From Candidatus Limosilactobacillus intestinipullorum (lineage in GTDB: Bacteria; Bacillota; Bacilli; Lactobacillales; Lactobacillaceae): DNA of 46,964 nucleotides. The stretch lies in contig DXAF01000063.1 of NCBI GenBank assembly GCA_019117185.1, positions 1 through 46,964 on the forward strand. Direction: 5' to 3'. The notes below the pieces were generated by a model, which did no database searches, was not told where the DNA came from, and saw nothing but the letters and a program-made list of their open reading frames with translations. Made by a program: the position numbers and the translations under genes. This document shows, in pieces, positions 24,115 to 42,868 of the stretch. Positions within the stretch are counted from its first letter, which is position 1. Every line of letters begins with the position of its first letter.

Positions 24115-24126
24115 TTTTCTACTGGG

Positions 24127-25011
24127 CTAGCGTAATTTTCGAATACCCTCTACTAGCATTAAGACTGATGTATAGATCATTACGCCAATGACTAGCCACA
24201 TTAGTATTGTGATATCAAGGCTCTTCACAAAGGTAATTGCCATGAAGACACCGATGCATCCACAAATCGTAATGGATAAAGCTGGTCCCCGCGCATAAAC
24301 CTTGTTTTTAATAAATACCCGCGCGGCAATTGGCATCACCGATGCAGCAGACGACATCATAATCGGAAACGCCACCATTGGATTTAGCCCTAATAAATAA
24401 ACCAAGGCCAGACAGGGTGCATATAGCCCGATTCCCGCGGTCATCAACGAACCTAAAACGAAGTTAACTGCACACGCAACGATTAACTTCCACCCGTGAA
24501 ATCCCGTCGCCGAATTGTGCATTCCCAGTTTACCCGTAACACCGGTTGCTGATAGGATCATTAATATTGCCGTAACTGCTAGCGCACAGCCCATTACGAC
24601 CTGAATTTTTCTTTCATCAAGTTTGGCAACAACCCGCGCACCAATAAAGGAGCCTAACATTGCCATAATAACCATCGACAATAACGTTATCCCATCAACC
24701 TTGACGGTTTTAATATACATAAATGCTTCGGTCATTACCGGAATGGCGCACCCAACATTTAACGTTCCCGGAAGTAACTTATCATTTTTTAATGATCGCG
24801 TTAGCTTTAAAAACATCGTTGTTGGTGCATAAGAACCAATACCCAACGTATCAAAAAAGTTAGTTGTAAATCCAATCAAGCCAGTTATAATCGGACTCCG
24901 CCTACCATCGTTAAGGTGCTTTCGATTAATAATAAGATCGTAACCATAATTATAAATCTGAAATAATAACAACGCGCCAAGGAGTAATTGAGTTATCAGT
25001 GTTATTTCCAT
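24127..25011 (-). CDS. TauE/SafE (TSUP) family permease, copy 1
   Basis: 294 residues with about eight hydrophobic segments and the family's repeated halves (GIIGF...NFFDTLGIGSYAP and GALMTAGIGLYAPC-like segments). TSUP proteins move sulfite, sulfonates and related anions; the substrate here is unknown. It is closely similar along its length to the second copy at 31810. Its place after selA suggests a selenium oxyanion or selenide role, but that is inference. The ATG at 25011 has GAGGAG 8 nt upstream, and is preferred to a GTG three codons earlier. Confidence 0.85.
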   Translation of the reverse strand: MEITLITQLLLGALLLFQIYNYGYDLIINRKHLNDGRRSPIITGLIGFTTNFFDTLGIGSYAPTTMFLKLTRSLKNDKLLPGTLNVGCAIPVMTEAFMYIKTVKVDGITLLSMVIMAMLGSFIGARVVAKLDERKIQVVMGCALAVTAILMILSATGVTGKLGMHNSATGFHGWKLIVACAVNFVLGSLMTAGIGLYAPCLALVYLLGLNPMVAFPIMMSSAASVMPIAARVFIKNKVYARGPALSITICGCIGVFMAITFVKSLDITILMWLVIGVMIYTSVLMLVEGIRKLR

Positions 25012-25109
25012 TTTTGTCACTCCTCATCATTAAGGTGGTTAACTATTTATTATGGTAAACCTTTACTAAATGCCAAGGAGCCGGTTCACCTTCCGCCACT
25101 TTCAATGCC

Positions 25110-25223
25110 TCACGTCCCCGACTTTGATATCCAGGACGGTATTGATTGCGGATTTTGTGGACATTCACTTGAAGCCTCAATCTCCTCATTTTTTATCTCA
25201 TCGCAATCGCCAATGCTTTTCAT
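25110..25223 (-). CDS. Possible 37-residue peptide between selA and the permease
   Basis: An ATG frame of 37 codons ends in TGA in an otherwise empty gap of about 240 bp. It is acidic and contains two Cys and several Pro/Ser. No ribosome binding site is evident. It might be the remnant of a longer gene or chance; I do not recognise it. Confidence 0.2.
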   Translation of the reverse strand: MKSIGDCDEIKNEEIEASSECPQNPQSIPSWISKSGT

Positions 25224-25248
25224 TGCAAAATACCGGTAACAACATAAC

Positions 25249-26652
25249 TTATTTATCAAATAATTCTCTTAGTCTGGCAGTGATTTGTTGGATATCACCG
25301 TTTTGAAGTGTGCGAACGTCGATAATAACTTTATCCTGCTCTAGACGGGTAATGATCGGGAACTCTCCAGTTCGCAAAAGCCGTTCTAACTCGGTTGATG
25401 AATAATAACCACTTCGGGGACTAATGCAAACTAAGGTCGTTGGTAGAAAGTAGCCAGGGTATGACCCGCCACCAACTTGAGAAGTCCCTGAAGCAGTCGC
25501 CACTTGGATCCCATTTATTGTTGACAAACTACTTGCTAAGTCCTCTGCCCGTTGCTTGAGTCGTTCAGAATCGATAGTAATCATTTGTAAAGTTGGAATC
25601 TTCTTAAGTGCTTCCGCCGGATTACGATAAAACTGTAGGGTCGCTGCCAAGGCTGCTAAAGTCATCTTATCAACCCGCAGTGCCCGCAGTAATTGATTCT
25701 GTTTAATTTGCTCAATTAACTCGCGCTTCCCAGCAATAACGCCCGCCTGTGGGCCGCCAAGTAATTTATCGCCAGAGAAAGTAACAATATCACTTGTCGC
25801 TACTGCTTCTTGAATTAATGGTTCACGAGGTAGTCCATACTTGCTTAAGTCTATCAAAAGGCCACTGCCGAGGTCATTAATCATCGGAATTCCGGCCTGG
25901 TGAGCAAGTTCTTGCAGCTCTGCCGGGTCCGGCTTTTCCGTAAAGCCAATGATACGGTAGTTACTCGTATGAACTTTTAAGATGGCGCCCGTCTGGTCCG
26001 TAAGAGCGGCTTGATAATCCTGCAGGTGGGTCTTATTCGTTGTTCCAACTTCCCGAAGAGTGCCACCACCCTTAGTAATAATCTCCGGCACCCGAAATGA
26101 GCCACCAATCTCTACTAACTCACCCCGAGAAACGATCACCTCTTTGTGGGGTACCAGGGTATCAAGCGTTAGCATTACTGCTGCCGCATTGTTATTAACA
26201 ACAAGGGCATCCTCTGCTCCAGTTAACTCACATAACAATTTTTCAATATGGTGGTAACGCAATCCCCGCTTTTTAGCAGCCAAGTTGTATTCCAGGTTAG
26301 AATACGAAAACATAATCTGGTTAAGATATTCTTCGATTGCGGGACTCAGCAGGGAACGCCCCAGATTAGTATGAAGAATAACCCCAGTCCCATTAATAAC
26401 GGGTCTTAATGATGGAAGGTTATCAAGGTGGCTTTGGGTGTTAATCATTTCAATAACATTGGATAGATTAACCGCCGTTAGTTTACCACTTAATATTTGC
26501 TGACGAATCTCATCTAGTACTTGGTGAATCACCTTTTTTATTTCATGCTCACCATTTTGCGCGATTAATTGCTGAATCGCTTTCTCCTGCATAAGGTCAT
26601 TAACTGCCGGAATCTCTCTAAATAGTTTACGCTGAACTTCCTTATTCTCCAT
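25249..26652 (-). CDS. selA: L-seryl-tRNA(Sec) selenium transferase
   Basis: Converts Ser-tRNA-Sec to Sec-tRNA-Sec using selenophosphate. 467 residues, with an N-terminal tRNA-binding domain and a PLP-dependent fold; Lys296 in FSGDKLLGGPQAG is the PLP lysine (E. coli SelA uses Lys295). The start overlaps the end of the csd-like gene by 11 nt. Together with selB, selC and selD in the same island it completes bacterial selenocysteine synthesis and decoding. Confidence 0.96.
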   Translation of the reverse strand: MENKEVQRKLFREIPAVNDLMQEKAIQQLIAQNGEHEIKKVIHQVLDEIRQQILSGKLTAVNLSNVIEMINTQSHLDNLPSLRPVINGTGVILHTNLGRSLLSPAIEEYLNQIMFSYSNLEYNLAAKKRGLRYHHIEKLLCELTGAEDALVVNNNAAAVMLTLDTLVPHKEVIVSRGELVEIGGSFRVPEIITKGGGTLREVGTTNKTHLQDYQAALTDQTGAILKVHTSNYRIIGFTEKPDPAELQELAHQAGIPMINDLGSGLLIDLSKYGLPREPLIQEAVATSDIVTFSGDKLLGGPQAGVIAGKRELIEQIKQNQLLRALRVDKMTLAALAATLQFYRNPAEALKKIPTLQMITIDSERLKQRAEDLASSLSTINGIQVATASGTSQVGGGSYPGYFLPTTLVCISPRSGYYSSTELERLLRTGEFPIITRLEQDKVIIDVRTLQNGDIQQITARLRELFDK

Positions 26653-27802
26653 GGTTTTCCCTCATCATCTTTGCAATTTTATTAACCGCGGTGCTTGCTG
26701 CCTCGACATCTGCCATTGTATTAAACGAACAAAACGAGAAGCGAACAATTCCTTGTTCAACCGTCCCTAGGGCATGGTGAATCAGTGGTGCACAATGCGC
26801 TCCAGACCGCGTTGCAATTCCTTGTGTTGTTAAATAATCACTTACGTCGGCCGAATTGATGCCGGCAATATTTAGACCGATTGTTCCCACATGTGGTGCT
26901 GCAAGGTTCGTATAAATTTTAACGTTACTATTTTGCTGGACCTGGTGGGCAAATTGGTCAGCTAGGGCAATTGTTTTTCTACCCATTACTTGTAAATCGT
27001 TTTTTAGCAGGTAGTCAATGCCAGCCCCCAAGCCAGCAATTCCGGGAACATTAATTGTTCCCCCTTCTAGCCGTTCGGGAAGGCGGTCCGGCATAGCATG
27101 GTTAAACGAATCGATCCCACTGCCACCAGAAATTAGTGGTTCAACCGGCAGGTCCCGTCGGAAACAGATCCCACCGGTACCCTCGGGCCCATACAAGGAC
27201 TTATGACCAGTAAAGCACAGGATATCGATTCCTAATGCCTGCATGTCAATCGGCAACACTCCCGCCGTCTGCGCCGCATCTAAGACTACAATTACGTGGT
27301 GACGGTGACAAATTTCGACAATCTGCTTTAAGTCAACTGTGTTCCCAATTACATTTGAGGCATGAGTACATACCAGCATTTTAGTATTGGGCTTAATAAG
27401 GTGTTCCAATGCCGCTACGTCAACTAGGTTTGTTGTCGGATCAAGTGGCAAAAAATTATGGGTTACTTGCTGGGCAGCAAGTTGATAAATCGGCCGAACA
27501 ACTGAATTATGATCATAAGCGGTCGCAATTACGTCGTCGCCAGGCTTTAGGTAACCCTTAATAACGGTGTTGAGCGCTTCAGTGACGTTCTTTGTAAAAA
27601 CTACCAGTGAACTGTCCGGAACATTAAATAGTCGTGCAACCTTTTGCCGCGTCTGGTATACGACCTCATTTGCGTTTACCGCGATCGGGTAGGCTCCCCG
27701 CGAAGGATTCCCATACTCCTCACTACTCAACACATTAAAAACCGCTTTGGCAACCGACAAGGGTTTTTGAACCGTTGTTGCACCATTGTCTAAATAAATC
27801 AT
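26642..27802 (-). CDS. Cysteine desulfurase-like protein of the selenium cluster
   Basis: 386-residue class V aminotransferase-fold PLP protein (IYLDNGATTVQKP start; PLP lysine in FTGHKSLYGPEG; active-site Cys in GAHCAPL). This type is often encoded beside selA/selD and yedF, and is thought to deliver reduced selenium (from selenocysteine or as a persulfide relay) to SelD. ATG at 27802 has AAGGG 8 nt upstream; an earlier GTG is possible. It starts 12 bp after selB and overlaps selA. Confidence 0.9.
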   Translation of the reverse strand: MIYLDNGATTVQKPLSVAKAVFNVLSSEEYGNPSRGAYPIAVNANEVVYQTRQKVARLFNVPDSSLVVFTKNVTEALNTVIKGYLKPGDDVIATAYDHNSVVRPIYQLAAQQVTHNFLPLDPTTNLVDVAALEHLIKPNTKMLVCTHASNVIGNTVDLKQIVEICHRHHVIVVLDAAQTAGVLPIDMQALGIDILCFTGHKSLYGPEGTGGICFRRDLPVEPLISGGSGIDSFNHAMPDRLPERLEGGTINVPGIAGLGAGIDYLLKNDLQVMGRKTIALADQFAHQVQQNSNVKIYTNLAAPHVGTIGLNIAGINSADVSDYLTTQGIATRSGAHCAPLIHHALGTVEQGIVRFSFCSFNTMADVEAASTAVNKIAKMMRENHGE

Positions 27803-27813
27803 TCTTCTCACCC

Positions 27814-29694
27814 TTAAGCATTTAATACGTGGACCCGATTGAGTCGTTTAGTAACGCCGTCTTTGTCTAGTCGTTCCAACACCATCATGGCATACTTACG
27901 TGAAGTTGCGGTCAAATCACGGTAACCACCCAGGTCAATTCCCGTCGGGTGGTCACGCAAATATTCAGTAACTTTTGCAACCACCCGCTGATAAACTGGA
28001 CGTGCAAAGTAGTAGCCGTCTGCTAGGCTAATAAAGTCTTGCCCATCAAATGCCACTAACAACGGCGTTGGGTCCTGACCATCAATCATGAGGTCAGTAA
28101 CTTTAAGCGGTGTCAAGTCATCCGTAGTCATCCGCTTTAGTAGTGCTGCCTTTTGCCGGACCTGCGCGGCAGTTAGTTGGACGGTAAAATCACTAGTTGC
28201 TACTAAATTATCCGCTACTTTTACCACACCGCTTGCCTGGACCCGTCCAAAGATTTCACTACCTAACGGTAACTGCAGCCAATCATTGATCTGTGAGATC
28301 ACCTCTGGCCGGGGAAGACCTGGGCGTAACGGGTTCTTTTGCTGTGCCGTACACAAATACGTTAAAACCCGTTCCTGAATACCTTGCCAGTATTGCTCGG
28401 TGAGGTAATAGTCCCCCACTTTTACTAGCTGTTTTTTAGCAACTAGTTCAGCGAGTAGCTTAACTACATCGTCATCATCAATATCCAACAAGCTTGCTAA
28501 AGCGGCCGCCGTCGCAACACCGCTCCCGGCGTTAGCCAGATAGTCAAGAATAATCGCGGACTGGTCACCACTCGCCCTAATCTTAAGGGTATTAATAATT
28601 GACTTATTATTTCGTGAATGGTACTTGGCATTGGCCGAAAGAACTCGGCCCCCCGCCACGGTAATCATTGGTGAATACGTCCGCATAATAAAGCGGTCAC
28701 CATTCTTAACCGCCACCGGTGCTTCAAGACGCAACTGGGCTAAGCACTTGCTACCACTATTGATGGTATCTTCGCCCATCGGGTAGATCCGGCCAAACGT
28801 TTCGACCGAACCAATATAAAGCCGGAAACGTTCGTTTAACTTTAAGGCAGGCACTCCCGGAAGCATCTGGAGTTCGACATCCAGTAATTTACCTGGTTGG
28901 ACGTTCCCCTTAACGGTAATGACATCACCCTTATGAAGCAAATTAGCTTTCACGTCAAGATTCAATGCTACCCGGTGGTCCGGTGCTGCTACCGGTTGGT
29001 CTGCATCATTGACTTGGATGTTCTTCACCCTTACAGGCAGTTGGTCCGGATAAACCATCAAGTTATCGCCGAGCTTAATAGCTCCATCAATCAGTGTCCC
29101 GGTTACAACCGTGCCGTGGCCCCTAATTGTAAATACCCGGTCAATATTTAACCGGGGATTGGTTCCTGGCCGATGCTTTTGAACTTTGCTAGCCACCTGG
29201 TCCATCACCTTAATCAGGTCATCAATTCCGCGACCAGTAACTGCATCCGTGACCACTAACGGTGCGCTCGCCAATGGTGTCTCCTTAAAATGTTCACGAA
29301 TATCATCGATGGTTAACTGGCACATTTCAGGGTCAACAGAGTCAGCCTTGGTAACCGCAATTACGAAGTTTTTAATCCCTAGCAAGGTTAAAATTGCTGC
29401 GTGCTCTTCTGTTTGCGGCATCACACCTTCTCCAGCGTCAACTACCAACAGCGCCATGTCAATTCCCGTCAGTCCAGAGATCATATTCTTCAAGAACTTT
29501 TCGTGCCCTGGAACGTCAACAAACGCAACCCGTTTTTTGCTCGGTAAATCAAAATAAGCGAAGCCTAAGTTAATTGTTAGACCCCGCTTCTTTTCTTCCG
29601 GAGCAGTATCGGTATCCGTGCCTGTTAGACGTTTAATAAGGGTGGTTTTGCCATGGTCGACATGTCCTGCGGTTGCAGTAACAATATAATCCAT
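27814..29694 (-). CDS. selB: Selenocysteine-specific elongation factor
   Basis: Carries Sec-tRNA-Sec to the ribosome at UGA codons that have a SECIS hairpin. EF-Tu-like GTPase with G1 AGHVDHGKTT at 9-18, DVPGHE at about 60-65 and an NKXD-like TKAD motif. The C-terminal third consists of winged-helix repeats that bind the SECIS RNA. 626 residues, close to E. coli SelB. The ribosome binding site is weak. Confidence 0.97.
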   Translation of the reverse strand: MDYIVTATAGHVDHGKTTLIKRLTGTDTDTAPEEKKRGLTINLGFAYFDLPSKKRVAFVDVPGHEKFLKNMISGLTGIDMALLVVDAGEGVMPQTEEHAAILTLLGIKNFVIAVTKADSVDPEMCQLTIDDIREHFKETPLASAPLVVTDAVTGRGIDDLIKVMDQVASKVQKHRPGTNPRLNIDRVFTIRGHGTVVTGTLIDGAIKLGDNLMVYPDQLPVRVKNIQVNDADQPVAAPDHRVALNLDVKANLLHKGDVITVKGNVQPGKLLDVELQMLPGVPALKLNERFRLYIGSVETFGRIYPMGEDTINSGSKCLAQLRLEAPVAVKNGDRFIMRTYSPMITVAGGRVLSANAKYHSRNNKSIINTLKIRASGDQSAIILDYLANAGSGVATAAALASLLDIDDDDVVKLLAELVAKKQLVKVGDYYLTEQYWQGIQERVLTYLCTAQQKNPLRPGLPRPEVISQINDWLQLPLGSEIFGRVQASGVVKVADNLVATSDFTVQLTAAQVRQKAALLKRMTTDDLTPLKVTDLMIDGQDPTPLLVAFDGQDFISLADGYYFARPVYQRVVAKVTEYLRDHPTGIDLGGYRDLTATSRKYAMMVLERLDKDGVTKRLNRVHVLNA

Positions 29695-29714
29695 GATTCA
29701 CTAATCCCGCTTTC

Positions 29715-29972
29715 TTATTTAATCGCCGTATAACTACTCTTAATTCCGTCACGTAGAGCATGATAAATGCCCTTGTAAGTGACACCATTATCATCTAGTA
29801 ACCTTCGTAACCGATTAGTATCGGTAAGTTCAAACCGCAAGCTTAAACCACAACCTGCAACAATCTGGCCTGGTGTTCCAATTAATCTTGCGTGAAATTG
29901 ATTATCCTTTGCTAATGTTTCCGTCTTGATTGCTTCGTGAGTTGAGTCAAAAACAACCAGACCGTATTCCAT
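29715..29972 (-). CDS. DUF3343 small protein (putative Se/S carrier)
   Basis: About 85 residues, with a single Cys in the AGCGLSLRF segment. DUF3343 genes recur next to yedF and cysteine-desulfurase genes in selenium-using bacteria and have been proposed as selenium or sulfur carriers; biochemical proof is lacking as far as I know. The start is uncertain: TTG, GTG and ATG lie within 13 nt, and I chose ATG. It is 21 bp upstream of selB. Confidence 0.75.
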   Translation of the reverse strand: MEYGLVVFDSTHEAIKTETLAKDNQFHARLIGTPGQIVAGCGLSLRFELTDTNRLRRLLDDNGVTYKGIYHALRDGIKSSYTAIK

Positions 29973-29991
29973 GTGCACGGTCAATCACCCA

Positions 29992-30648
29992 CTAGCATGG
30001 TTTTACAACCCGTTGGGCGGTCCGCATTAACTCGGTGATCCGGAACATGTTAGTAATTGAGCCAACTCCTAACTGGTCCTTGATATCAAAGAAGTTAACA
30101 CAAATCCCGCATTCCATAATCTTAACACCCATTTTTTCAAGTGCTTGAAGATCTTCTACGGTGTCCGCGTCCTTCATGGCCAACTTCACACCACTATTAA
30201 ACATTAAGATGTATTCTGGCAAGACGTCCTGCTCAGTTAATGAAGAAACAAAGCTCTTCGCTAATTGCTTACCTAGCGTAGAGTCACCCCGACCAACTTC
30301 GTCTGAATCAAGAACAACAATGTAGCCGTCAGAAAGACGAATACTATTGAACGCTGCTGGTTCAACCCGTTGCTGATCATTACCGTCATCGACAACAGTG
30401 GCATTAATCGCTGCATCACAAGCTGTAGGAGCTGCTGTTGCTTGCTTTTCTACGGTGACCGCCCATTCATGGTCACCCTTTTGTTCAACAGAAACCTTAT
30501 ACCCCAGCTGCTTAGCCATCTTAGAAATGTTTTCCGTCGCGATTTCTTCACTTACACGTGTCACAACAACATCATTATCCCGCAAAGCTTTACGAGTCAT
30601 AATAACAGGCGTTGGACAAGCCTTTCCCATTGCATCAACTGTTTGCAT
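29992..30648 (-). CDS. yedF: Selenium metabolism protein YedF
   Basis: 218 residues in two domains. The N-terminus is TusA/SirA-like with the signature ACPTPV (Cys11), a persulfide carrier motif. The C-terminus is DsrE-like with MECGICVNFF. This fused form is the selenium-associated YedF found beside selD. It probably passes reduced selenium or sulfur between the desulfurase-like protein and SelD (inference). A clear AAAGGAG precedes the ATG, 26 bp after selD. Confidence 0.88.
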   Translation of the reverse strand: MQTVDAMGKACPTPVIMTRKALRDNDVVVTRVSEEIATENISKMAKQLGYKVSVEQKGDHEWAVTVEKQATAAPTACDAAINATVVDDGNDQQRVEPAAFNSIRLSDGYIVVLDSDEVGRGDSTLGKQLAKSFVSSLTEQDVLPEYILMFNSGVKLAMKDADTVEDLQALEKMGVKIMECGICVNFFDIKDQLGVGSITNMFRITELMRTAQRVVKPC

Positions 30649-30674
30649 ACCTAAAGATCTCCTTTTTACTTAAC

Positions 30675-31715
30675 TTAATCAACAATAATCTCAACTGGGT
30701 CAGTAGGGTCCTTCTTCGTGACTTTGCCAATAATTGCTGGCTTAGTTGCTAACTCATTCATTTTTGCCATCATTTCATCTGCATATTCTGGTTGGACCGC
30801 AATTAGCAGACCACCAGACGTCTGCGGATCAAATAGGACTTCTTCGAGAGCATAATCATCAAAAGTCATTTTAATGCGGTTACCAATAAAGTCACGGTTG
30901 CGCTGACCACCAGCCGTGGTCAGAAATTCACCACCACATTCGTATGCTTCTGGAATCATCGGAATATTTTCGGCAGTCAACGTTGCCTGATGTTCACCAT
31001 GCAGCATTTCAGTTAGGTGACCGGCCAAACCAAAGCCGGTAATATCAGTACAGGAATCGACTGGATACTCACGCATGATATCAGCAGCATATTTATTAAG
31101 TGTCGTCATCGAAGTAATTGCTGCCTGGTAGGCTGCCTCACTGGTTTGCTTGGCGTTATACGCGGAAACAACCATTCCCACTCCTAGTGGCTTGGTCAGG
31201 ATTAGTACATCACCGTCTTGAACCCGGTCATTACGCAGGATCTTATCTGGTGCAACCTTCCCCATTACCGACAGGCCATACTTAGCCCGGTGGTCATGGA
31301 TTGAGTGTCCACCGGCCAGAATTCCGCCGGCTTCTTTCACCTTTTCCGCACCCCCCTTTAGGATTTTCTCCAATATGTTCATATTGCTATCCTCAGGGAA
31401 GCATACAATATTAAGACAGGTCACAACATCTCCACCCATTGCAAAGACGTCTGATAAAGCATTAGTTGCAGCAATTTGGCCAAATAGGTATGGGTCAGTA
31501 ACCATTGATGGAAAAAAATCAAGGGTCTGGATAATAGCGGTATCGTCATCAATCCGATAAACCGCTGCATCATCGTCTGAATTATAGCCGACTAACAACC
31601 GATCACTTTGCTTGGGACGCGGTAATGATTTTAAAATTGCTGCTAAATTACCAGCGCCAATTTTAGCATTGCAACCACCACACACGGTTAAAAAGTCATC
31701 ATTAGCTGATGCCAT
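30675..31715 (-). CDS. selD: Selenophosphate synthetase
   Basis: Makes selenophosphate from selenide and ATP. 346 residues. The active-site loop is CGGCNAK, with Cys15 and Lys18 in the positions of E. coli Cys17 and Lys20; it is a Cys form with no in-frame UGA. Gly-rich ATP-binding segments (AMGGD, GGHSIHD) follow. AAGGAG precedes the ATG. Two small hairpins lie between the upstream permease and selD. Confidence 0.97.
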   Translation of the reverse strand: MASANDDFLTVCGGCNAKIGAGNLAAILKSLPRPKQSDRLLVGYNSDDDAAVYRIDDDTAIIQTLDFFPSMVTDPYLFGQIAATNALSDVFAMGGDVVTCLNIVCFPEDSNMNILEKILKGGAEKVKEAGGILAGGHSIHDHRAKYGLSVMGKVAPDKILRNDRVQDGDVLILTKPLGVGMVVSAYNAKQTSEAAYQAAITSMTTLNKYAADIMREYPVDSCTDITGFGLAGHLTEMLHGEHQATLTAENIPMIPEAYECGGEFLTTAGGQRNRDFIGNRIKMTFDDYALEEVLFDPQTSGGLLIAVQPEYADEMMAKMNELATKPAIIGKVTKKDPTDPVEIIVD

Positions 31716-31741
31716 CCTTGTTTCACTCCTTATGTTTATTA

Positions 31742-31785
31742 AGGCTTACTAAAGCCTATGTATGGCCATGAAGCTAATCATGGCC
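31742..31785 (-). promoter_or_regulatory. Tandem hairpins before selD
   Basis: On the minus strand GGCCATGA/TCATGGCC (8 bp, loop 6; 31764-31785) is followed by AGGCTT/AAGCCT (6 bp, loop 4; 31742-31757). Neither has a T run, so they look like RNA-stability, processing or attenuation elements inside the prdF-permease-selD transcript. Confidence 0.5.
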
Positions 31786-31809
31786 AAGAAAAAATATGTG
31801 TTTAAGCAA

Positions 31810-32703: not shown

Positions 32704-32726
32704 ATGCTAATACCTCCTAAATGATT

Positions 32727-33743: not shown

Positions 33744-33760
33744 CTTCATATACCTCCCGT

Positions 33761-34237: not shown

Positions 34238-34249
34238 TAATCATCCTTT

Positions 34250-34996: not shown

Positions 34997-35014
34997 AGGT
35001 TTCCCCTCTTTCTA

Positions 35015-35060
35015 AATAAGGCGCGGCCATACAGAATAACTCATATAGCCGCGCCTTATT
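35015..35060 (-). promoter_or_regulatory. GC-rich hairpin between prdB and prdD
   Basis: A perfect 13-bp stem (35015-35027 with 35048-35060) with a 20-nt loop starts 14 nt after the prdB stop. No T run follows on the minus strand. It may stabilise the 3' end of the prdA-prdB message or reduce read-through into prdD, giving more catalytic subunits than downstream proteins. Confidence 0.6.
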
Positions 35061-35074
35061 AGCCTTATTTGAGG

Positions 35075-35800
35075 TTAAATATCGGCAACATATTCGTACG
35101 GAAGTGGTACGATCTTGCCAGGTTGGTCAATTTCCACCAGTTGTTTCAACGTATCTTTTACGATGCCCGTTTGCATCTCCACGTTGTTTGGTTCGCCGGC
35201 ATTGGCACCCATTGGTACACGAGGAGCAACGGCACGTGGCGTACCTTGCTGACGTACTACTGGAGGTAACGCTGCAATGATAATAGTAGGAATCCCTAGA
35301 GATTCAATAGCTCGCTGCACGATCACGGCAGTTCTGTGGCAGGTACCTCAACCAGCAGTCAGAATAACGCCATCGACGCCTTCCTCTTTAACCTTCTTTG
35401 CAATTGCTGGACCAGTTTCTTCAGTGAAGACCTTAACGTCTCCACCACCACCCATACAAGTGTAGAAGTTTGGAGCAAGTGAACCGATGAAGCCTTCATC
35501 AGCAAGTTCACGTAAACGATCAATTGGGAACATGCAGTTGATGTCCTTGTTAACATCGGTGTTATCATAACCACCGTGTGAAACCATCAATTCATCATCC
35601 GTAGCAGTGCTTGGGACAACCCGGTAACTAGTATCACCGGCTAAATTGAAAGGCTTATCTTTCTTCAAGTGGACACCAGCGGCAGTAACAATCGCAATCT
35701 TCATGTCCTTAAGCGGCTTCGTTACTTTTGCGAAAACCGGCTTTGGTGTGATGGGCACGAAGACTTCGGATTGTAAGCCATCAACTTTTAATAAGCTCAT
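35075..35800 (-). CDS. prdB: D-proline reductase selenoprotein subunit PrdB (UGA = Sec151)
   Basis: Read through the in-frame TGA at 35348-35350, the product is 241 residues, the usual PrdB length. The UGA falls in the LTAG-Sec-GTCHR context, giving a UxxC redox motif at 151-154 in place of CxxC. The frame is uninterrupted on both sides: 150 codons before and 90 after. Sec151 attacks D-proline to open the ring with the PrdA pyruvoyl group, yielding 5-aminovalerate. The start overlaps the upstream gene by 4 nt (ATGA). An annotation that ignores Sec would split or truncate this gene. Confidence 0.96.
35315..35331 (-). promoter_or_regulatory. bSECIS-like hairpin in prdB
   Basis: On the minus strand CTGC-CG-TGAT-CG-T-GCAG forms a six-pair stem with one bulged T and a UGAU apical loop containing G. 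The loop begins 22 nt after the UGA, inside the 16-37 nt range described for bacterial SECIS elements. The fold is by hand, so the stem limits are approximate. Confidence 0.6.
35348..35350 (-). other. prdB: Selenocysteine UGA codon of prdB
   Basis: TGA on the minus strand, codon 151 of prdB, followed by GGT ACC TGC (Gly-Thr-Cys). The presence of selA, selB, selC and selD in the same island supports recoding rather than a nonsense mutation. Confidence 0.93.
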
Positions 35801-36120
35801 TCCTGTTTCCTTCCTTTCTCTTTGGCAATTGCTGCCATTCGTTTTTTATACTCATGAAGCGCACCTAAATACTTTTGGTTAGCTTCTGTATCAAGAACTT
35901 CTGGATAAGACATTAACCAGCCGACCTCTTCACCAACTTTTGGATCATACTCCGTAATTAGGAGACGACGTGGAACATCCATTTTCCCCATTCGTCCTTT
36001 GAAGTCGATTTTAACACTAACGTCATTTACTTCGGTAATCACGCCTTCAAATACGCGTTCCGTTGATGAATACTTTAGCTTATCGATTTCCGAAGAATAA
36101 TCCATCCGTTTATCAGTCAT
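35797..36120 (-). CDS. Small conserved protein of prd operons
   Basis: 107 residues, predicted soluble. A beta-rich middle (FEGVITEVNDVSVKIDFKGR) is followed by a charged helical end. Similar small genes occur between prdA and prdB in clostridial clusters (CBO2463/CBO2479-type family, named from memory). Function unknown. It overlaps prdA by one base (TAATG) and prdB by four, so all three are translationally coupled, which suggests near-equal amounts and a part in assembly or maturation. Confidence 0.75.
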   Translation of the reverse strand: MTDKRMDYSSEIDKLKYSSTERVFEGVITEVNDVSVKIDFKGRMGKMDVPRRLLITEYDPKVGEEVGWLMSYPEVLDTEANQKYLGALHEYKKRMAAIAKEKGRKQE

Positions 36121-38018
36121 TAGTCAACATCCTTCTCATAGTGTTCCTTACGTTTCTTACTCATTGGTAAGCTTTGTTCGTTCTTAACCAGGTTGATCTT
36201 CTTACCAGTGGCCTTTTCAATTAAGTCAATGTTATTCAACTTAACATTAGGGTTCCACTTACGTTCTGGCTTCTTGATCTTTCCACCGGCCATCTTCGTT
36301 TCAAGCATTGCAAGAGCCCGAATAGCGTCTTCTTGACAAAGTGTGTTGTTTTCAAGAACTTCGTTTTCGATTCCCCACTTGGACTTGTTGTTATCAACGA
36401 TGGCGTCCATGTACTTGTTACCAGTAACCAGTTCCCCTTGAACAGCGGAGTAAGTAATACCAACAACTGGAACACCACGTGAACCGATCGCTTCAATGTT
36501 TTCACCGTAGTCAATGTGGTTGTTACCAAAACCTTCAGTCGTAACAATAGCACCATCCAGGTCCATTGCTTCAGCCCACATACCAAGCCGCTTAGAAACG
36601 TAGCTCTTTTGCGTGTTAGCTTGTGGCGAACCGATTAGGCAGACACCAACAACGTCAATGTCTTTATCAGCCAAGGCTTCTTCAACCAGTGGTTCACGCC
36701 AGTAGTGACGAGAAGTTTCCTTTGAAGCAGGTCCAATACAAGTCAATGCATGGATACCACCATCAAGGATTTCCAGTGGTGAAAGCATAATTGGTAAGTT
36801 ACCAAGGTCAACGTTAGCTTGTGCGCCAAGAGTACCAACTGGTTCCTTTGGCAGAATCAAGTTATCGTGCATAGCACCTTGTCCCATGATTTCCTTAACC
36901 AAGAGAACCCGCTTGTTACCGAAGCGACGCTTTTGTTCAAGCTTTTCAGTATTAACAACTAGGCTATCATCAGCCTTTTTAAGGGCTTCACGAATGTGCT
37001 CAACGATTGTGTCGGCTGCTTCGTGGGCGCCACGTGGGCCACGACGTTCACGGTTAGTACCTGCTTGGACAGTGGCATCGATGACAAGCATGATTTCACC
37101 CTTGTCAATGGCACCAGGACGGCCCCACATAACGTTTTCATCAACGTAACCTTCTGAAGAACCGAATTCACCGACTTGAACACCATTCTCATCGGTACCA
37201 GTTAGGACGGTAACAACACCATCAAGAACCCGGGTAACACCTTCACCAAGTTCACCCTTTTCCTTGGTAGCAATTGGTTGAACATCCATGATACTGTTGG
37301 TGTACTTGTGGTAATCATCAGGGGTAATGACACTAATCTTCATGTCCTTAACGATTTCTTGAGCTTCAACAGCATCCTTGCAAAGTTGGTCAGGGTTACC
37401 AATAACTAACGTTGTTCCGTCAATCTTGGTCTCGTCCCCGAACTCGATCTTATCGATCTTAAAGTGCTTCCGAGTCAAGCTCCGTACAACTTCTTCATCA
37501 ACTTCTGGTTCTTGTTGAGAAGCAGCCGTTTCGTTACTTGCTTGGCTAGCAGCAGGTGCACTTTGCACAGCACCTTGGTTAACCATTGCCAATGGAACAT
37601 CTAACTTGATGTCCTTACCTTCCTTAACGGAAAGGTGTAACATCCCATCAGATACACCATTATTAGCAACAGCGGTAGTTACATCTGAAGAAGCCGCTGA
37701 TGATCCTTCATCCTTAGCAGATGAATCTTCCGTAGCTTCTTCGTCATCATTTTGTGCTGAAGGATCTTGAATGTTATCAACAACATCCGGCGTCAGCGGA
37801 AGCAAAGCATCCATAGTCTTGTTTAGAGTGGCTCCTAAGACCTGACCAATGGTCAAAACATTGTCAGGCAACTCTAGTAGACCAGAATCCTCGTAGTCAG
37901 GGAACAGCGTTGGGTCTTCCAAATCGGAAGCTTCCAATAGCTTACCCTTTTCCCGCCGGCAACATAATACGGCCGGGTCGTTGAGGTGCTCCTTAGCAGT
38001 TTCAACTGAAATAGACAT
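36120..38018 (-). CDS. prdA: D-proline reductase proprotein PrdA
   Basis: Proprotein of 632 residues cleaved at Thr426-Cys427 (IHALT/CIGPASKET) so that Cys427 becomes the pyruvoyl group of the small subunit; the C. sticklandii equivalent is Cys421. The pyruvoyl binds D-proline for reductive opening with PrdB. An N-terminal domain (1-80, with CC at 19-20) is joined by a linker rich in Asp, Glu, Ser and Ala (about 83-175). AAGGAGG precedes the ATG. First gene of the operon that runs to the island's left end. Confidence 0.96.
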   Translation of the reverse strand: MSISVETAKEHLNDPAVLCCRREKGKLLEASDLEDPTLFPDYEDSGLLELPDNVLTIGQVLGATLNKTMDALLPLTPDVVDNIQDPSAQNDDEEATEDSSAKDEGSSAASSDVTTAVANNGVSDGMLHLSVKEGKDIKLDVPLAMVNQGAVQSAPAASQASNETAASQQEPEVDEEVVRSLTRKHFKIDKIEFGDETKIDGTTLVIGNPDQLCKDAVEAQEIVKDMKISVITPDDYHKYTNSIMDVQPIATKEKGELGEGVTRVLDGVVTVLTGTDENGVQVGEFGSSEGYVDENVMWGRPGAIDKGEIMLVIDATVQAGTNRERRGPRGAHEAADTIVEHIREALKKADDSLVVNTEKLEQKRRFGNKRVLLVKEIMGQGAMHDNLILPKEPVGTLGAQANVDLGNLPIMLSPLEILDGGIHALTCIGPASKETSRHYWREPLVEEALADKDIDVVGVCLIGSPQANTQKSYVSKRLGMWAEAMDLDGAIVTTEGFGNNHIDYGENIEAIGSRGVPVVGITYSAVQGELVTGNKYMDAIVDNNKSKWGIENEVLENNTLCQEDAIRALAMLETKMAGGKIKKPERKWNPNVKLNNIDLIEKATGKKINLVKNEQSLPMSKKRKEHYEKDVD

Positions 38019-38398
38019 AGGCCAACCTCCTTAAATAATGTTCAGTTAGCCGAATCTGTAGACGGATCGATGATTCATGTGTGGTTTGTATCATTTATTG
38101 TGAATCCGCCCACAAATCACGACATAACCAACCTATAATCCTGCTTGATATCATTGCAGCTTTTATCAAGCACATTCATTATATTTCATTTTTGAATCGT
38201 TTTCAATCTAATTAGTATTAAACTTCAACTCATTTTTATCACAAAATGATCATTTTCTTATCACTATTGATAAATTTATGGTGTAACAATTTACCGTATG
38301 TCATTTATGCGTTCTTTCACAATTGTACTTAAATGCTACCGTCATTTTTATGAAGACGGGTTTATTGGCCCCCAGTTTGTGATGACGAACGCAAAAAA
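38019..38398 (-). promoter_or_regulatory. prdA promoter and regulatory region
   Basis: AT-rich, no gene. On the minus strand TTGAAA (38201-38206) and TATAAT (38178-38183) are 17 bp apart, a near-ideal promoter. A cre-like site TGAAAACGATTCAA (38192-38205, 12 of 14 matches by my reading) overlaps the -35, suggesting CcpA repression. A 9-bp inverted repeat (38142-38172) sits at the expected +1. Upstream are a 14-bp palindrome AAAATGATCATTTT (38243-38256) and nearby TTATCAC repeats. The leader is about 150 nt and includes a 13-nt motif shared with prdC (38077-38089). Confidence 0.75.
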
Positions 38399-38443
38399 GA
38401 CGGGGCAGACAAGGATTGGTAAAATATCTTGTCTGTCCCGTCT
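38393..38443 (-). terminator. Terminator after the proline iminopeptidase gene
   Basis: On the minus strand GACGGGACAGACAAGAT pairs with ATCCTTGTCTGCCCCGTC (about 16 pairs with one mismatch) and is followed by TTTTTT. It separates the iminopeptidase transcript from the prdA promoter. Confidence 0.9.
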
Positions 38444-38456
38444 CATTCACCGGGTT

Positions 38457-39347
38457 TTAATCATTTGCGTTTAACCAGTCAATCAATAATTTTTCATAGT
38501 CATCATGACGTTCAACGAATGACATATGACGACAATATTCAAATAAGTGCCACTTGGCATTCGGAATCCGATCATACATTGACTTAGCAGTATATGGTGT
38601 GCACAAGTCATCGGTCCCACTGGTAATTAATACCGGAACGTTAATATCTTTCAGTTGGTCCATGTAGTCATAATCCTTCAGGTTACCTTCTGGATTGTAC
38701 TCATTTGGCCCCCAACCAGTAATATATGCTACGGAACCGGCATTTTTCTTCCGCCGAAGTGGTTCAGGGTCATCGGGTGATGGTGCCGCATTACAATGCA
38801 TCTCCATAAATTTAGCGTTGGCCCGTTGGTATTCAGGACTCGTAAACTCATCTTTGGCCTCAGCCTCGGCAATTGCCTTTTGGTCGGCTGGGTCCATGAA
38901 CTTTATCATCCGGTGCAGCTCCTTGTCCCACATCCATGAAGCCGGCAAGGTACTTGCTAAAATTCCGGACTTAATCCCTTGCGGTTGCTCATCACAAAGG
39001 TAAATGATTTCTAACATTCCACCCCAGGATTGGCCCAGTAAGTGAACCTGATCTAAATGCAAGTACTCACGCAGGGCCTTTAATTCCTTGACCCAGGTTG
39101 GGGCATTGTATAACTCATCAGCCTTATCATCTGGCATTGAAGACTTTCCGCAACCAATTTGATCATACATCACTAATTGACGGTGGTCTTTTTCAGCCAA
39201 GTCATCAAGCACTTCAAAGTAATTGTGCGTTGAACCCGGGCCACCGTGCAGCAATAGCAGTGGCGCCTTATCACTTTTTTCACCAACAATCCGATAATAA
39301 GTCTTATACTCACCAAGCGGCATGTATCCTTCTTGTACCTTGGTCAT
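38457..39347 (-). CDS. pip: Proline iminopeptidase (alpha/beta hydrolase)
   Basis: 296 residues. The oxyanion HGGPG motif is at about 34-38 and the nucleophile Ser107 in GQSWGG, as in family S33 prolyl aminopeptidases, which release N-terminal proline from peptides. No signal peptide, so intracellular. The ATG at 39347 has AAGGAG 8 nt upstream. Set between selC and the prdA promoter, it plausibly supplies proline to the reductase. Another aminopeptidase specificity cannot be ruled out. Confidence 0.88.
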   Translation of the reverse strand: MTKVQEGYMPLGEYKTYYRIVGEKSDKAPLLLLHGGPGSTHNYFEVLDDLAEKDHRQLVMYDQIGCGKSSMPDDKADELYNAPTWVKELKALREYLHLDQVHLLGQSWGGMLEIIYLCDEQPQGIKSGILASTLPASWMWDKELHRMIKFMDPADQKAIAEAEAKDEFTSPEYQRANAKFMEMHCNAAPSPDDPEPLRRKKNAGSVAYITGWGPNEYNPEGNLKDYDYMDQLKDINVPVLITSGTDDLCTPYTAKSMYDRIPNAKWHLFEYCRHMSFVERHDDYEKLLIDWLNAND

Positions 39348-39366
39348 TTTATACACTCCTTATAAT

Positions 39367-39396
39367 AAAAAAGAGAGCCGAAAACTTTCGACTCTC
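39367..39396 (-). terminator. selC: selC terminator
   Basis: On the minus strand GAGAGTCGAA pairs with TTCGGCTCTC (one G-T pair) and is followed by TTTTTT. It begins 29 nt after the tRNA CCA end, giving selC a short transcript of its own. Confidence 0.85.
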
Positions 39397-39424
39397 ACTA
39401 CTCTTAAGTGATTAATATTCATCC

Positions 39425-39521
39425 TGGCGGGAATACGTAGGAATCGAACCTACCTAAGAGGCTTTTAACCCCTCGCACTGGTTTTGAGGACCAGGGAGCA
39501 CACCAGAACTCATCTATTCCC
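39425..39521 (-). tRNA. selC: tRNA-Sec (anticodon UCA)
   Basis: 97 nt with encoded CCA. The acceptor pairs GGGAATA with TATTCCC; the anticodon stem CTGGT/ACCAG encloses loop CCTCAAA, with anticodon TCA at 39485-39487, which reads UGA. There is an extended variable arm (about 20 nt, GAGG/CCTC core), and the T arm is GTAGG-TTCGATT-CCTAC. Length, long variable arm and anticodon identify selenocysteine tRNA. The eighth acceptor pair typical of bacterial tRNA-Sec reads G opposite G here. It sits 37 nt after the peptide transporter stop. Confidence 0.95.
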
Positions 39522-39528
39522 ACTGAAC

Positions 39529-39557
39529 ATTCTAACGAAAGAGATAAGAATCGTCAA
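39529..39557 (-). promoter_or_regulatory. selC: selC promoter
   Basis: On the minus strand TTGACG (39552-39557), a 17-bp spacer and TAGAAT (39529-39534) are followed 7 nt later by the first G of the tRNA. The fit to the consensus and the spacing to the mature 5' end are excellent. Confidence 0.85.
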
Positions 39558-39558
39558 C

Positions 39559-41040
39559 CTACAATTGAATTAGCTTTGCCAGCATCCCCCGCATGGAGAA
39601 CAGAATTACCGCAATCACAATTGCAACTACCCCCATCACACCAAAGTACATGGCGGCATTTGGTACACTGTATAGTTTTACCAATTGGGCATTAAACGAT
39701 TGCGCGGCAGCATCCCCTAAAAACCAAATACTCATCATCTGAGCATTAAAGGCCTTCGGTGCTAACTTTGTCGTCAATGATAATCCGGAAGGTGAAAGGA
39801 AAACTTCACCAATTTCAACAATGGCGATACTTAAGATCAACCACCAACCAGAGAACTTAACTCCAACCCCATTAATTGCGATTGGAATCAGTAATACCAA
39901 GAACGAGAACGCTGATGCCAGCAGCCCGATAGTAAACTTTGAGGTTGAAGAAGGCTGCTTCTTTCCCATCTTAGTCCACATTGCCGCTACAATCGGCGAA
40001 TAAACTAAAACAAATAATGCGTTAAAACCAGTAAATTGACTAGCCTGAACATGAATACCGAATAATTTCAAATCAGTCATTTGTTGAGCAACCAGTGGGA
40101 AAATCGTCATCGTTTGCTCATAAATTGACCAGAAGAAAACACTGGCGATAAAGACAACAATATAAACAATTACGTTTTTCCGATCCTTAGGAGTAATCTT
40201 AGGGCTCCGAAAAATGTTAAAGAAGTAAATCGCTGGTAGCAGGATCCCTAAAATCGTAATGATAAAGATAATATTATTAACGTTTAACGTGTGGGTGAAG
40301 TACATGATTAGTAAGCCAACCACGACGATCGCCGTTACCCAACTTACCTGTTTAATAACTTTAGCCTTTTCGTCCGGCTTAATCGGGTCATTAGGCAAAA
40401 GACCATCCTTACCAAGATATTTCTTACTTCCAATGCAGTATTGGATCAAGCCTAGCACCATTCCAACCGTTGAGAGCGCAAACCCAGCATGGTAACTGTA
40501 GGTTTGACCGACCCAACCAACGATAAACGGTGCTAACAATGCCCCAATATTGATCCCCATATAGTAAATGTTGAACCCAGCATCACGCCGTGTATCTTCT
40601 TTGCTGTATAGGCCACCAACCATGTCAGAGACGTTGGGCTTAAGAAAACCAGTCCCTAAAACAATAATTACAATCGATACGTATAAGCCAACAAACCGTA
40701 GTGGCAATACCAAGATAAAGTTACCGAGGGCAATTAAAACACCACCCCAAAAGACGGTCCGCCGTGGTCCCAAGATCCGGTCACTGATAAAACCACCAAT
40801 CACTGTTGACATATAAATTAGGGCCCCGTAAATAGCAACAATCGAGGTTGCAATTGAGGTGTTCATCCCTAATCCGCCCTTACTGAAACTATCAATTAGG
40901 TAGAACAGTAAGATTGCGTGCATACTATAATAACTAAACCGTTCCCACATTTCGGTGAAGAACAGCGTTGATAATCCATGTGGGTGACCAAAAAAGGCAG
41001 TGTCTTCAGGATGTCGTCCACTAGGTGAATCATTACTCAT
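39559..41040 (-). CDS. dtpT: Proton-dependent oligopeptide transporter (POT family)
   Basis: 493 residues, about 12-14 membrane segments. Family motifs are clear: ExxER (TEMWERFSYY, near residue 30-39), the GGFISDRxxGxRRT loop after TM2, and FYxxINxGA (NIYYMGINIGALLAP). Takes up di- and tripeptides with protons. Within the island it would import proline-containing peptides for the iminopeptidase (inference). Confidence 0.9.
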   Translation of the reverse strand: MSNDSPSGRHPEDTAFFGHPHGLSTLFFTEMWERFSYYSMHAILLFYLIDSFSKGGLGMNTSIATSIVAIYGALIYMSTVIGGFISDRILGPRRTVFWGGVLIALGNFILVLPLRFVGLYVSIVIIVLGTGFLKPNVSDMVGGLYSKEDTRRDAGFNIYYMGINIGALLAPFIVGWVGQTYSYHAGFALSTVGMVLGLIQYCIGSKKYLGKDGLLPNDPIKPDEKAKVIKQVSWVTAIVVVGLLIMYFTHTLNVNNIIFIITILGILLPAIYFFNIFRSPKITPKDRKNVIVYIVVFIASVFFWSIYEQTMTIFPLVAQQMTDLKLFGIHVQASQFTGFNALFVLVYSPIVAAMWTKMGKKQPSSTSKFTIGLLASAFSFLVLLIPIAINGVGVKFSGWWLILSIAIVEIGEVFLSPSGLSLTTKLAPKAFNAQMMSIWFLGDAAAQSFNAQLVKLYSVPNAAMYFGVMGVVAIVIAVILFSMRGMLAKLIQL

Positions 41041-41371
41041 AATAAATACATTCCCTTCACTAACGCGCCAATATAAATTAATAATACATATTAAATTATA
41101 TCAGTTCCTTTCATTTGCGCAAAACTACTCAGAAGGTTAGATTTTGGCTAAAAAATTAACAAATATCGAATATTAGTCGCTTTATCCCATTAAATAATGA
41201 ATATTCTTGTCTTGCCCGTCTAACTGACCAATCGCGATAATGTGGTAATAGTTGTGACGGTAAGCTTTATTGATCAGTAGTGCGCAAGGCCCACGATAAA
41301 AAAACACATAATATAAGTACGCTGGTCGCACCCACTATTATGCATTTTTCATCTTATCAAACTAAAAATCC
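41041..41371 (-). promoter_or_regulatory. Gap between prdC and the peptide transporter
   Basis: 331 bp, no gene. A promoter for the transporter is likely on the minus strand: TATAAT at 41095-41100 with TTGCGC 16 bp upstream (41117-41122). I see no convincing terminator for prdC in the rest, only AT-rich sequence with partial inverted repeats. Confidence 0.55.
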
Positions 41372-42706
41372 CTATTCATTATTTTCAGGCAAAATGTGCC
41401 GCATAATCCGCATATCCACTGCCCGCCGTGCGAAGTCGGTGGTGTGGTAAACTGGCATATTCAGTTTTGGTGCAACACCCATAACGGTATTCGTACAATC
41501 AGTACAATTACCAACCAAGAGGGTCTTAGCACCGCCCTTCCGTAATTTGAGAATCGTTTGTGCTTGTCCAGGGCAGATACCAGGGTTCTTACACTTTGCG
41601 GTTCCCGTCTTCGGGTTAACTACGGCGTTCTTACACCATTCAACGCCGGTAACGTCAGCGTTCATCTTTTCAGCAATTTCCTTCATCCGTGCCGGGGTTG
41701 CGCTGCAAGCACAGGCTAACAAGCCAACCTTTTCACCATGGAGGTTCGGGAATGGAATCGTTGCAATAATACCGCCGTCTACCTTAGTGATTGGGCTTTC
41801 GAGCGTCGTACTATGACCAGTGAATGGTCCACCCATAATTAATTCGCCATAATCTGCCATGTTCGGGAATGCACTCAAGACGTCACCAACTAATGTCCCA
41901 ACCGGAACATCCTTGTGGACAAGGACCATCTTGTTGTCACCATTTAGCCGGCCGGCAACCGTGATATCCTTACTCATTACTGGTTCACGGTTTTCAATCG
42001 CCCGTGCTGCCCGGTAGACAGTCTCAACATTCGTCACGATTGCGTTAGCCGCATATGGTAATTCAGTCGTCTTCAAAACCGCGTTTTCACCGTCTGGCTT
42101 CTTGTACAATCCTGAATCACGAAGGACTGCCCGTTCTTCACCTTCTGGGTACCGGTTCCACATCAATTCCAGTGAAATATCATCATGAGTACGAACTAGC
42201 TCCTCAAGCAATGCCACAGTGTTGGTGTGGTAACGCTTAATCGCAATATGAATATCCTTGGCTTGAACAATTTCTTTGATGTATTCCGCACCACGAATAA
42301 TTTGTTCAGCATCAGTCGTAATCCGTGAAATATTGTGTCCTAAAATCGGCTCACATTCTGCTGCGTTAATAAACAGGTGTCCACCTGGGATTGGCCGTGC
42401 ATACTTAGCAGCAGCTGGGAAACCAGCACCACCAGCACCGATAACCCCCGCCTCACGAATCGCGTCGAGGTTAGAATCCGTGTCTGGAATCTTGACGAAG
42501 TCCTTTGGTTGTTCTTCATCGGCTTCGATAACGATTGCTTGGTCGTTAATTTCTGTGATGGTCCCATATACACTAGCATGCAAATTAGCACCCAGTCCAT
42601 CTGGCTTACCAATCAATTGACCACGCTTAACATGGTCACCAACCTTAACGATCGGCGTTACTGGAACACCGACACTTTCTTTCAGTGGTAACACTAACTT
42701 ACTCAT
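41372..42706 (-). CDS. prdC: PrdC, RnfC-like electron donor for proline reductase (all-Cys form)
   Basis: 444 residues. The start is a biotinyl-like/RnfC N-terminal domain (VTPIVKVGDHVKRGQLIG), followed by a GAGGAGFP flavin/NADH-type loop as in RnfC/NuoF. Cysteine-rich segments (ACACS, CKNPGICPG, and CTDC at 401-404) follow. PrdC passes electrons from NADH to PrdB in clostridia, where it is itself a selenoprotein; here there is no in-frame UGA and CTDC is Cys-only. It is separated from prdA by about 3.3 kb. Confidence 0.88.
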   Translation of the reverse strand: MSKLVLPLKESVGVPVTPIVKVGDHVKRGQLIGKPDGLGANLHASVYGTITEINDQAIVIEADEEQPKDFVKIPDTDSNLDAIREAGVIGAGGAGFPAAAKYARPIPGGHLFINAAECEPILGHNISRITTDAEQIIRGAEYIKEIVQAKDIHIAIKRYHTNTVALLEELVRTHDDISLELMWNRYPEGEERAVLRDSGLYKKPDGENAVLKTTELPYAANAIVTNVETVYRAARAIENREPVMSKDITVAGRLNGDNKMVLVHKDVPVGTLVGDVLSAFPNMADYGELIMGGPFTGHSTTLESPITKVDGGIIATIPFPNLHGEKVGLLACACSATPARMKEIAEKMNADVTGVEWCKNAVVNPKTGTAKCKNPGICPGQAQTILKLRKGGAKTLLVGNCTDCTNTVMGVAPKLNMPVYHTTDFARRAVDMRIMRHILPENNE

Positions 42707-42800: not shown

Positions 42801-42868
42801 CCTAAAAGTGACTCACAGTACAACGCTTTGCCCCTTATCGTTCAACACTGAATTCGCTTTAATTTAAA

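Follow-up and report, generated by a model that had tools for sequence, protein, structure and literature searches.

A complete-looking selenocysteine-dependent D-proline reductase module, accompanied by its own sel genes, between murF and htpX in a Limosilactobacillus genome

The window analysed here is the whole of contig C41 (DXAF01000063.1; 46,964 bp) from the 74-contig, 1.74-Mb draft genome of Candidatus Limosilactobacillus intestinipullorum (GCA_019117185.1; 90.8% completeness, 0.51% estimated contamination). Between the core genes murF and htpX, it carries what we hold with considerable confidence to be a complete-looking D-proline reductase module that depends on selenocysteine (Sec), brings its own Sec machinery, and belongs to a lactobacillar prd/sel lineage, with no recent import from clostridia. 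This reading draws on gene content, an in-frame UGA followed by conserved codons, a gene order shared with other loci, an insertion site that is empty in relatives, and phylogenetic trees. Curated protein models, Pfam, Rfam, and ARAGORN place all of the island genes on the minus strand at 24127-42706, in the transcription order prdC, dtpT, selC, pepI, prdA, a CBO2463-domain gene, prdB, prdD, prdE, prdF, TauE2, selD, yedF, a DUF3343 gene, selB, a desulfurase gene, selA, and TauE1.

An earlier note, made from the letters of this stretch alone, had listed prdA through prdF, a complete Sec pathway, selenium-handling accessories, two permeases, and a proline-releasing peptidase with a peptide importer, and this inventory is confirmed. 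Four reductase genes exceed their curated cut-offs: prdA (36120-38018; TIGR04480, 988.3 bits, cut-off 700), prdB (35075-35800; TIGR04483, 405.2 bits when its UGA is read through, cut-off 300), prdC (41372-42706; TIGR04481, 627.8 bits, cut-off 490), which encodes an RnfC-like electron-transfer protein, and prdD (34250-34996; TIGR04482, 351.2 bits, cut-off 320). For prdE and prdF, the genes are in place and the labels hold less well. PrdE (33761-34237) is a 158-residue protein resembling the C-terminal part of PrdA, which it matches at TIGR04480 positions 414-564 with 142.2 bits, below the 700 set for whole PrdA; PrdF (32727-33749) is best described as proline racemase-like and scores below its cut-off, as discussed further on. 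PrdA contains the motif TCIGP, the Thr-Cys pair of which lies where pyruvoyl cleavage is expected. On its model score and this pair, PrdA is assigned as a D-proline reductase proprotein, and its cleavage is predicted. The CBO2463-domain gene (35797-36120; NF041553, 93.1 bits, cut-off 50) stands between prdA and prdB in all 80 named loci that were compared; its small product is predicted to fold as an OB/S1-like barrel with a C-terminal helix and is possibly a maturation factor.

The Sec pathway is complete, each component exceeding its cut-off: Sec synthase selA (25249-26652; TIGR00474, 593.3 bits, cut-off 267.9), the Sec-specific elongation factor selB (27814-29694; TIGR00475, 336.4 bits, cut-off 242.25), whose product carries a C-terminal winged-helix domain (SelB-wing_3, 46.4 bits), selenophosphate synthetase selD (30675-31715; TIGR00476, 378.6 bits, cut-off 125), which has no in-frame UGA, and selC. 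The latter, a tRNA-Sec with anticodon TCA lying between dtpT and pepI, was located at 39425-39521 by ARAGORN and at 39429-39521 by Rfam RF01852 (65.7 bits, gathering score 47). Among the accessories, yedF (29992-30648; TIGR03527, 199.4 bits, cut-off 110) and the DUF3343/Se_S_carrier gene (29715-29984; Pfam PF11823, 79.5 bits, cut-off 25) are well above threshold, and the desulfurase (26642-27811), a possible selenium donor, passes the cysteine desulfurase family model TIGR01977 with 380.2 bits against a cut-off of 377. The two permeases are TauE/SafE-family transporters exceeding the Pfam PF01925 gathering score of 32.6, namely TauE1 (24127-25020; 55.1 bits) and TauE2 (31810-32703; 46.7 bits). 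Finally, the peptidase is the proline iminopeptidase pepI (38457-39356; NF045945, 491.4 bits, cut-off 400), and the importer is the POT-family peptide:H+ symporter dtpT (39559-41040; TIGR00924, 387.4 bits, cut-off 130.2).

The prdB gene, for the selenoprotein subunit, is split into two open reading frames by a TGA at 35348-35350, around which the active-site motif reads G-U-G-T-C-H-R. TGA occupies the Sec codon in all 84 prdB loci that match the active-site pattern, from 87 tried; the remaining three are L044, L050, and L149, the last of which was later read as Cys. When codons are scored only in comparisons where the amino acid matches, with the window as reference (up to 83 sequences), positions +6 to +11 past the UGA are the same as in the window at frequencies of 1.0, 0.90, 0.90, 0.86, 0.98, and 1.0, compared with 0.46 elsewhere; codon +12 is identical at only 0.05, so the block +6 to +12 averages 0.80. 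No p value is claimed because these sequences are related. Such retention of particular codons past the UGA is what would be expected of an RNA element. Just 3' of the UGA, a hairpin is predicted whose 17-base core (CTGCCGTGATCGTGCAG, 35315-35331, minus strand) is letter-identical in the Clostridioides difficile locus L039 and differs in a Terrisporobacter plasmid. Judged by the predicted fold, the comparison between loci, and the retention of synonymous codons, this hairpin is a putative Sec insertion sequence (SECIS) element, and binding by SelB is predicted.

PrdC, which carries Sec in most comparable loci, is a Cys form here (CTDC). Across 88 loci tried, 58 have UGA at this motif and five have Cys, so that CxxU accounts for 58 of the 63 readable motifs; in 20 loci the motif was not found, and five have no prdC. 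The five Cys forms are those of the window, L. salivarius, Bombilactobacillus, genome G151, and locus L079. Because PrdC of the window is a Cys form, prdB is the sole recognised UGA gene of the island. PrdC of the Companilactobacillus type (L004-L007, L011, L014, L139, and L144) has an in-frame UGA (CQDU), giving two UGA genes per cluster.

The insertion site was defined by comparison within the genus. Across 47 genomes including the source, counted by eye from gene listings, no more than 300 bp separate murF from htpX in 43 of the 46 others, including G034, in which their order is swapped; in the three exceptions, the two genes are on separate contigs (G019) or htpX and a full murF match are missing (G020 and G046). 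In blastn alignments, homology with all ten relative junctions that were aligned ends at 24015-24033 and resumes at 42931-43004, defining a missing stretch of 24021-42932 whose murF-side end is placed within about 15 bases. The position between murF and htpX given in the earlier note is thereby confirmed, as is its impression of a higher AT content: GC is 43.9% within the island and 48.6% outside it, and GC at third codon positions (GC3) is 0.41 for 17 island genes vs 0.56 for 20 flank genes (Mann-Whitney p=5e-7). Of 50 genomes of the genus, prdB was detected in one. No integrase was recognised among the 20 proteins scanned (18 from the island plus MurF and HtpX; other flank open reading frames were not scanned), in line with the note, and the island ends bear no marking repeat apart from a 9-mer at about chance level. 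Of the note's proposal of acquisition by transfer, an insertion particular to this genome at murF-htpX is supported; a recent clostridial source is not. Elsewhere in the window, an ordinary L31-Firmicutes ribosomal protein leader (Rfam RF03156) lies at 46925-46958.

Sec use is rare in the family, as the note had supposed for Lactobacillales: SelB exceeds its cut-off in 13 of 397 Lactobacillaceae genomes and PrdA likewise in 13, spread over six genera, with 12 genomes common to both sets. The only PrdA genome with SelB under the cut-off, G265 (L149), has a Cys-form PrdB near L149 position 12818, so the exception fits; from its sequence, G265 apparently carries a selenium-free variant of proline reductase. 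Conversely, G081 (L153) has SelB with a weak PrdA-family match (71.5 bits) and a PrdB-like match (32% identity), probably a pair of the glycine/betaine/sarcosine reductase type; its locus holds a sel set and tRNA-Sec near this pair, without prd. Among the best 80 of 465 PrdA matches, carriers were named in Companilactobacillus, Loigolactobacillus, Bombilactobacillus, Enterococcus, Vagococcus, Listeria, and Gemella, and a separate comparison added plasmid records, five from L. salivarius and eight from Terrisporobacter. The order prdA-cbo-prdB-prdD-prdE-prdF-TauE-selD-yedF-DUF3343-selB-desulfurase-selA is common to Companilactobacillus, Bombilactobacillus, and several Enterococcus, Vagococcus, and Listeria loci, and the L. 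salivarius plasmids have nearly the prd/sel order of the window.

That the whole block was recently transferred from a clostridium can be given very little credence. Its GC and GC3 lie below those of the flanks and its occurrence in the genus is sporadic, as such a transfer would predict, but the trees largely refute it. Fourteen Lactobacillaceae PrdA sequences form one clade (support 99), within which the window stands beside L. salivarius, Loigolactobacillus, Bombilactobacillus, and G151 (98), G265 being apart on a long branch; 15 Lactobacillaceae SelB sequences group together (97), the window with G115 and G250 (98); and PrdC of the window joins L. salivarius and G151 (100). Several sequences in these trees, the window SelB included, show long branches or odd composition. 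Because PrdA and SelB of the Lactobacillaceae form clades of their own, a recent clostridial donor is unsupported, and the best PrdA identity, 67%, is to lactobacilli, compared with at most 62% to clostridia among the matches listed. An assembly or binning artefact that joined a foreign island to this contig is equally hard to credit: the draft is fragmented and incomplete and GC differs inside the island, yet the two junctions are internal to a single contig whose flanks are typical of the genus, pepI and the two TauE genes cluster with copies from the genus, and estimated contamination is low. We also consider it very unlikely that the island is a non-functional remnant in which the prdB UGA is a true stop. 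The L. salivarius homologue is listed as a probable pseudogene in PMC4165912; against this, PrdA, PrdC, PrdD, SelA, SelB, SelD, and YedF span their models end to end or nearly so without stops, the UGA and its downstream codons are conserved over the compared Firmicutes, and the distribution of SelB tracks Sec-type Prd.

Several observations nonetheless count against a complete, Sec-dependent module in a heterofermentative host. PrdF, at 496.8 bits, misses the 556 cut-off of the proline racemase model NF010576, and is called racemase-like because this is its best model in the library and the gene sits at the prdF place. The desulfurase reaches only 313.6 bits with the selenocysteine-lyase model SclA (cut-off 525) and is filed in the TIGR01977 family because it passes that model and misses SclA. 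General model scans of the island proteins recognised no PrdR-like regulator, and no 9-mer is common to at least five of the compared prdA upstream regions. The description of prdB as the one client of Sec decoding applies to the island, the rest of the genome not having been searched for selenoproteins. Moreover, no phosphoketolase was found in the source assembly (91% complete). The heterofermenter host proposed in the note finds its support at the level of the genus: 43 of the 47 genomes carry phosphoketolase, and those of the remaining four, source included, are 66-91% complete; PfkA is missing from all 4 members of the genus examined for it, and all 8 of the prd- or sel-carriers tested from other genera have it. 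The host genus looks obligately heterofermentative.

Part of the block has close counterparts within the genus. In the window, dtpT, pepI, and TauE1 bracket the remaining genes (dtpT, selC, pepI, prdA to selA, TauE1), and its dtpT and pepI are 78-81% identical to a gene pair in genomes G029 and G030, where dtpT and pepI lie about 20 bp apart and precede a TauE gene that shares 71-72% identity with TauE1. This operon occupies a site other than murF-htpX and is without prd, sel, or selC; its dtpT looks frameshifted. An insert beside this dtpT (L159 11450-14450) is 99.7% identical to a Limosilactobacillus panis plasmid and about 74% identical to ISL3-family transposase regions. Because the nearest genes to dtpT and pepI, in a comparison covering the genus and the prd loci, are those of the genus, a portion of the block may be indigenous to it. 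Besides the pepI of the window, 26 pepI loci were listed and 24 fetched; TauE adjoins pepI in five of them (G027, G028, G029, G030, and G010), accompanied by dtpT in two, and flank alignment places the loci of G027 to G030 at one chromosomal site. The G010 contig (L163, 5090 bases) matches G028 at 99.9% identity along 4.8 kb, the murF genes being 69% (G010) and 86% (G028) identical to that of the window, and may reflect a recent transfer or bin contamination. In ten Enterococcus prd loci, pepI (59-61%) and weak permease matches (22-27%) lie upstream of prdC; this prd-linked pepI forms a separate branch in the pepI comparison, and thus the link between proline release and prd may have arisen more than once.

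The TauE-like protein is itself tied to proline reduction. The gene after prdF is TauE-like in 66 of the 69 named loci that could be used (prdF present and room downstream; of 80 loci, seven had no prdF at the threshold and four were cut). At 50% identity or more, 15 of the 397 Lactobacillaceae genomes have a member of the subfamily, and 12 of these have PrdA; the three without it are G027, G028, and G292, the last with a TauE at 51% in a 20-kb stretch that gave no match to any further island gene. In PMC3091704, PrdG is a potential membrane protein suggested to excrete 5-aminovalerate. We infer that the TauE-like protein is probably PrdG. Its occurrence beside pepI where proline reductase is absent argues for proline as the cargo, unless those loci are decaying relics; dtpT, pepI, and TauE would thus tie the protein to proline in two settings. 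The TauE tree unites TauE1, TauE2, and the five copies linked to pepI in a single clade (100/98), in which TauE1 joins G029/G030 (95/91). Placement of TauE2 within the group of L. salivarius, Loigolactobacillus, Bombilactobacillus, and G151, a group picked after the tree had been seen, was rejected by an approximately unbiased test (p-AU 1e-6).

These loci suggest that the dtpT-pepI-TauE operon either remains from an older island or is native and came to be enclosed by the present one. An old island of the genus branch, from which relatives lost prd and sel while keeping pepI-TauE (with dtpT in two) and which survived here at murF-htpX, is a serious possibility that falls short of being probable. 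It would account for the operons of G029/G030 and the pepI-TauE pairs of G027/G028 at one site without prd or sel, for the overlap of the TauE subfamily with PrdA, and for the single TauE clade, with the alternative placement of TauE2 rejected. Set against it, no prd or sel remnant was found at the pepI-TauE site, there are just five such loci, one of them (G010) possibly contamination, and pepI identity to the window (81% in G030, 67% in G027) conflicts with that of murF (84% and 86%), a disagreement that makes transfers within the genus likely. GC3 of pepI and TauE is low in G028 (0.40 and 0.36) and higher in G030 (0.61 and 0.59), and base composition therefore does not date these events. 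It is rather unlikely, if still worth entertaining, that an imported prd/sel cassette invaded a native dtpT-pepI-TauE operon at murF-htpX or en route to it, selC entering between dtpT and pepI and prdA to selA between pepI and TauE1. Removing selC and prdA to selA does restore the G030 order dtpT, pepI, TauE1, and dtpT and pepI share about 80% identity with their G029/G030 counterparts, near core-gene identity; however, TauE2, expected to arrive with the cassette, groups with the TauE copies of the genus, and murF-htpX is not the site of the operon in relatives. In a fuller scenario, the island is an old one of the heterofermentative branch that relatives lost down to a dtpT-pepI-TauE relic; the persistence of PrdG/TauE next to a proline iminopeptidase where proline reductase is absent would then mean that it moves proline and not 5-aminovalerate or sulfite, and Sec decoding could be lost as a unit with its single client. 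We offer this as speculation that we think improbable as a whole.

Such islands have precedents in lactobacilli. PMC4165912, published in 2014, lists a self-contained prd/sel region, R1, on the L. salivarius megaplasmid pMP1046A (NZ_CP007647.1), taking prdB for a probable pseudogene and reading the genes as serving L-/D-proline interconversion and L-selenocysteine synthesis. The current record of the plasmid has prd and sel genes by name, and prdB of L. salivarius JCM1046 (L150 20995-21720) has the usual Sec UGA. Like the window, R1 runs prdA-cbo-prdB-prdD-prdE-prdF-TauE followed by yedF-DUF3343-selB-desulfurase-selA, and its prdC (73% identical, Cys form), selD, and tRNA-Sec make it self-contained. 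Unlike the window, it is megaplasmid-borne, has APC permease, YedE, and TusA-like genes, places prdC and selD after selA, and in its 40.7-kb stretch shows no pepI or dtpT match and one such TauE. Companilactobacillus, Bombilactobacillus, and Loigolactobacillus share the prd order and the PrdA and SelB clades of the window, and the former two its sel order; they differ in having no pepI or dtpT match in the compared stretches, in the PfkA of those tested, and, for Companilactobacillus, in the UGA of PrdC. A 21-kb Terrisporobacter plasmid (NZ_CP081136.1) likewise unites prd with selA, selB, selC, and selD on one small unit, but is clostridial and plasmid-borne, its PrdA being 56% identical to that of the window; PrdF is reported to be chromosomal (PMC10564238). 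The operons of C. difficile and Clostridium sticklandii share the PrdA-F set, and the fetched C. difficile loci also have a TauE-like gene after prdF; in contrast to the window, no sel gene was matched alongside the four C. difficile prd loci fetched, and PrdC of C. sticklandii carries Sec, as stated in PMC3091704.

Because R1 and the Terrisporobacter plasmid are published, this island type is already known; what is new is the apparently heterofermentative host, the single-UGA state with Cys PrdC, and the embedded proline operon with its possible relics. No open-licence PubMed Central paper was found that pairs 'Limosilactobacillus' with 'proline reductase' or 'Companilactobacillus' with 'selenocysteine', searches that may miss other genus names and subscription papers.

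From the gene content, we infer the expression, activity, transport substrates, and physiology of the module, guided by the mechanism of the clostridial enzyme as described in PMC3091704. DtpT would bring in proline peptides, from which PepI would free N-terminal proline for conversion to D-proline by PrdF. Processed PrdA, with its pyruvoyl group, and PrdB, with its Sec, would open the D-proline ring to yield 5-aminovalerate, PrdC relaying electrons from NADH. SelA, SelB, SelC, and SelD, aided by the desulfurase, YedF, and DUF3343, would serve the one recognised UGA of the island, and the TauE-like proteins probably carry proline or 5-aminovalerate. An added electron acceptor lets heterofermenters gain ATP; here, proline reduction may spare ethanol formation and allow acetate and ATP to be formed instead.

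As far as the island tells, an entire Sec machinery is maintained for the sake of a single UGA codon. The family in question has uses in food and as probiotics, and the open literature searched hardly mentions selenocysteine in connection with it. The island helps to show how prd/sel blocks are assembled and lost, and the pepI-linked TauE copies offer a natural test of the PrdG/TauE cargo. If active, the module would provide a heterofermenter with a further outlet for electrons and with ATP, and its host would compete with C. difficile for proline and supply 5-aminovalerate.

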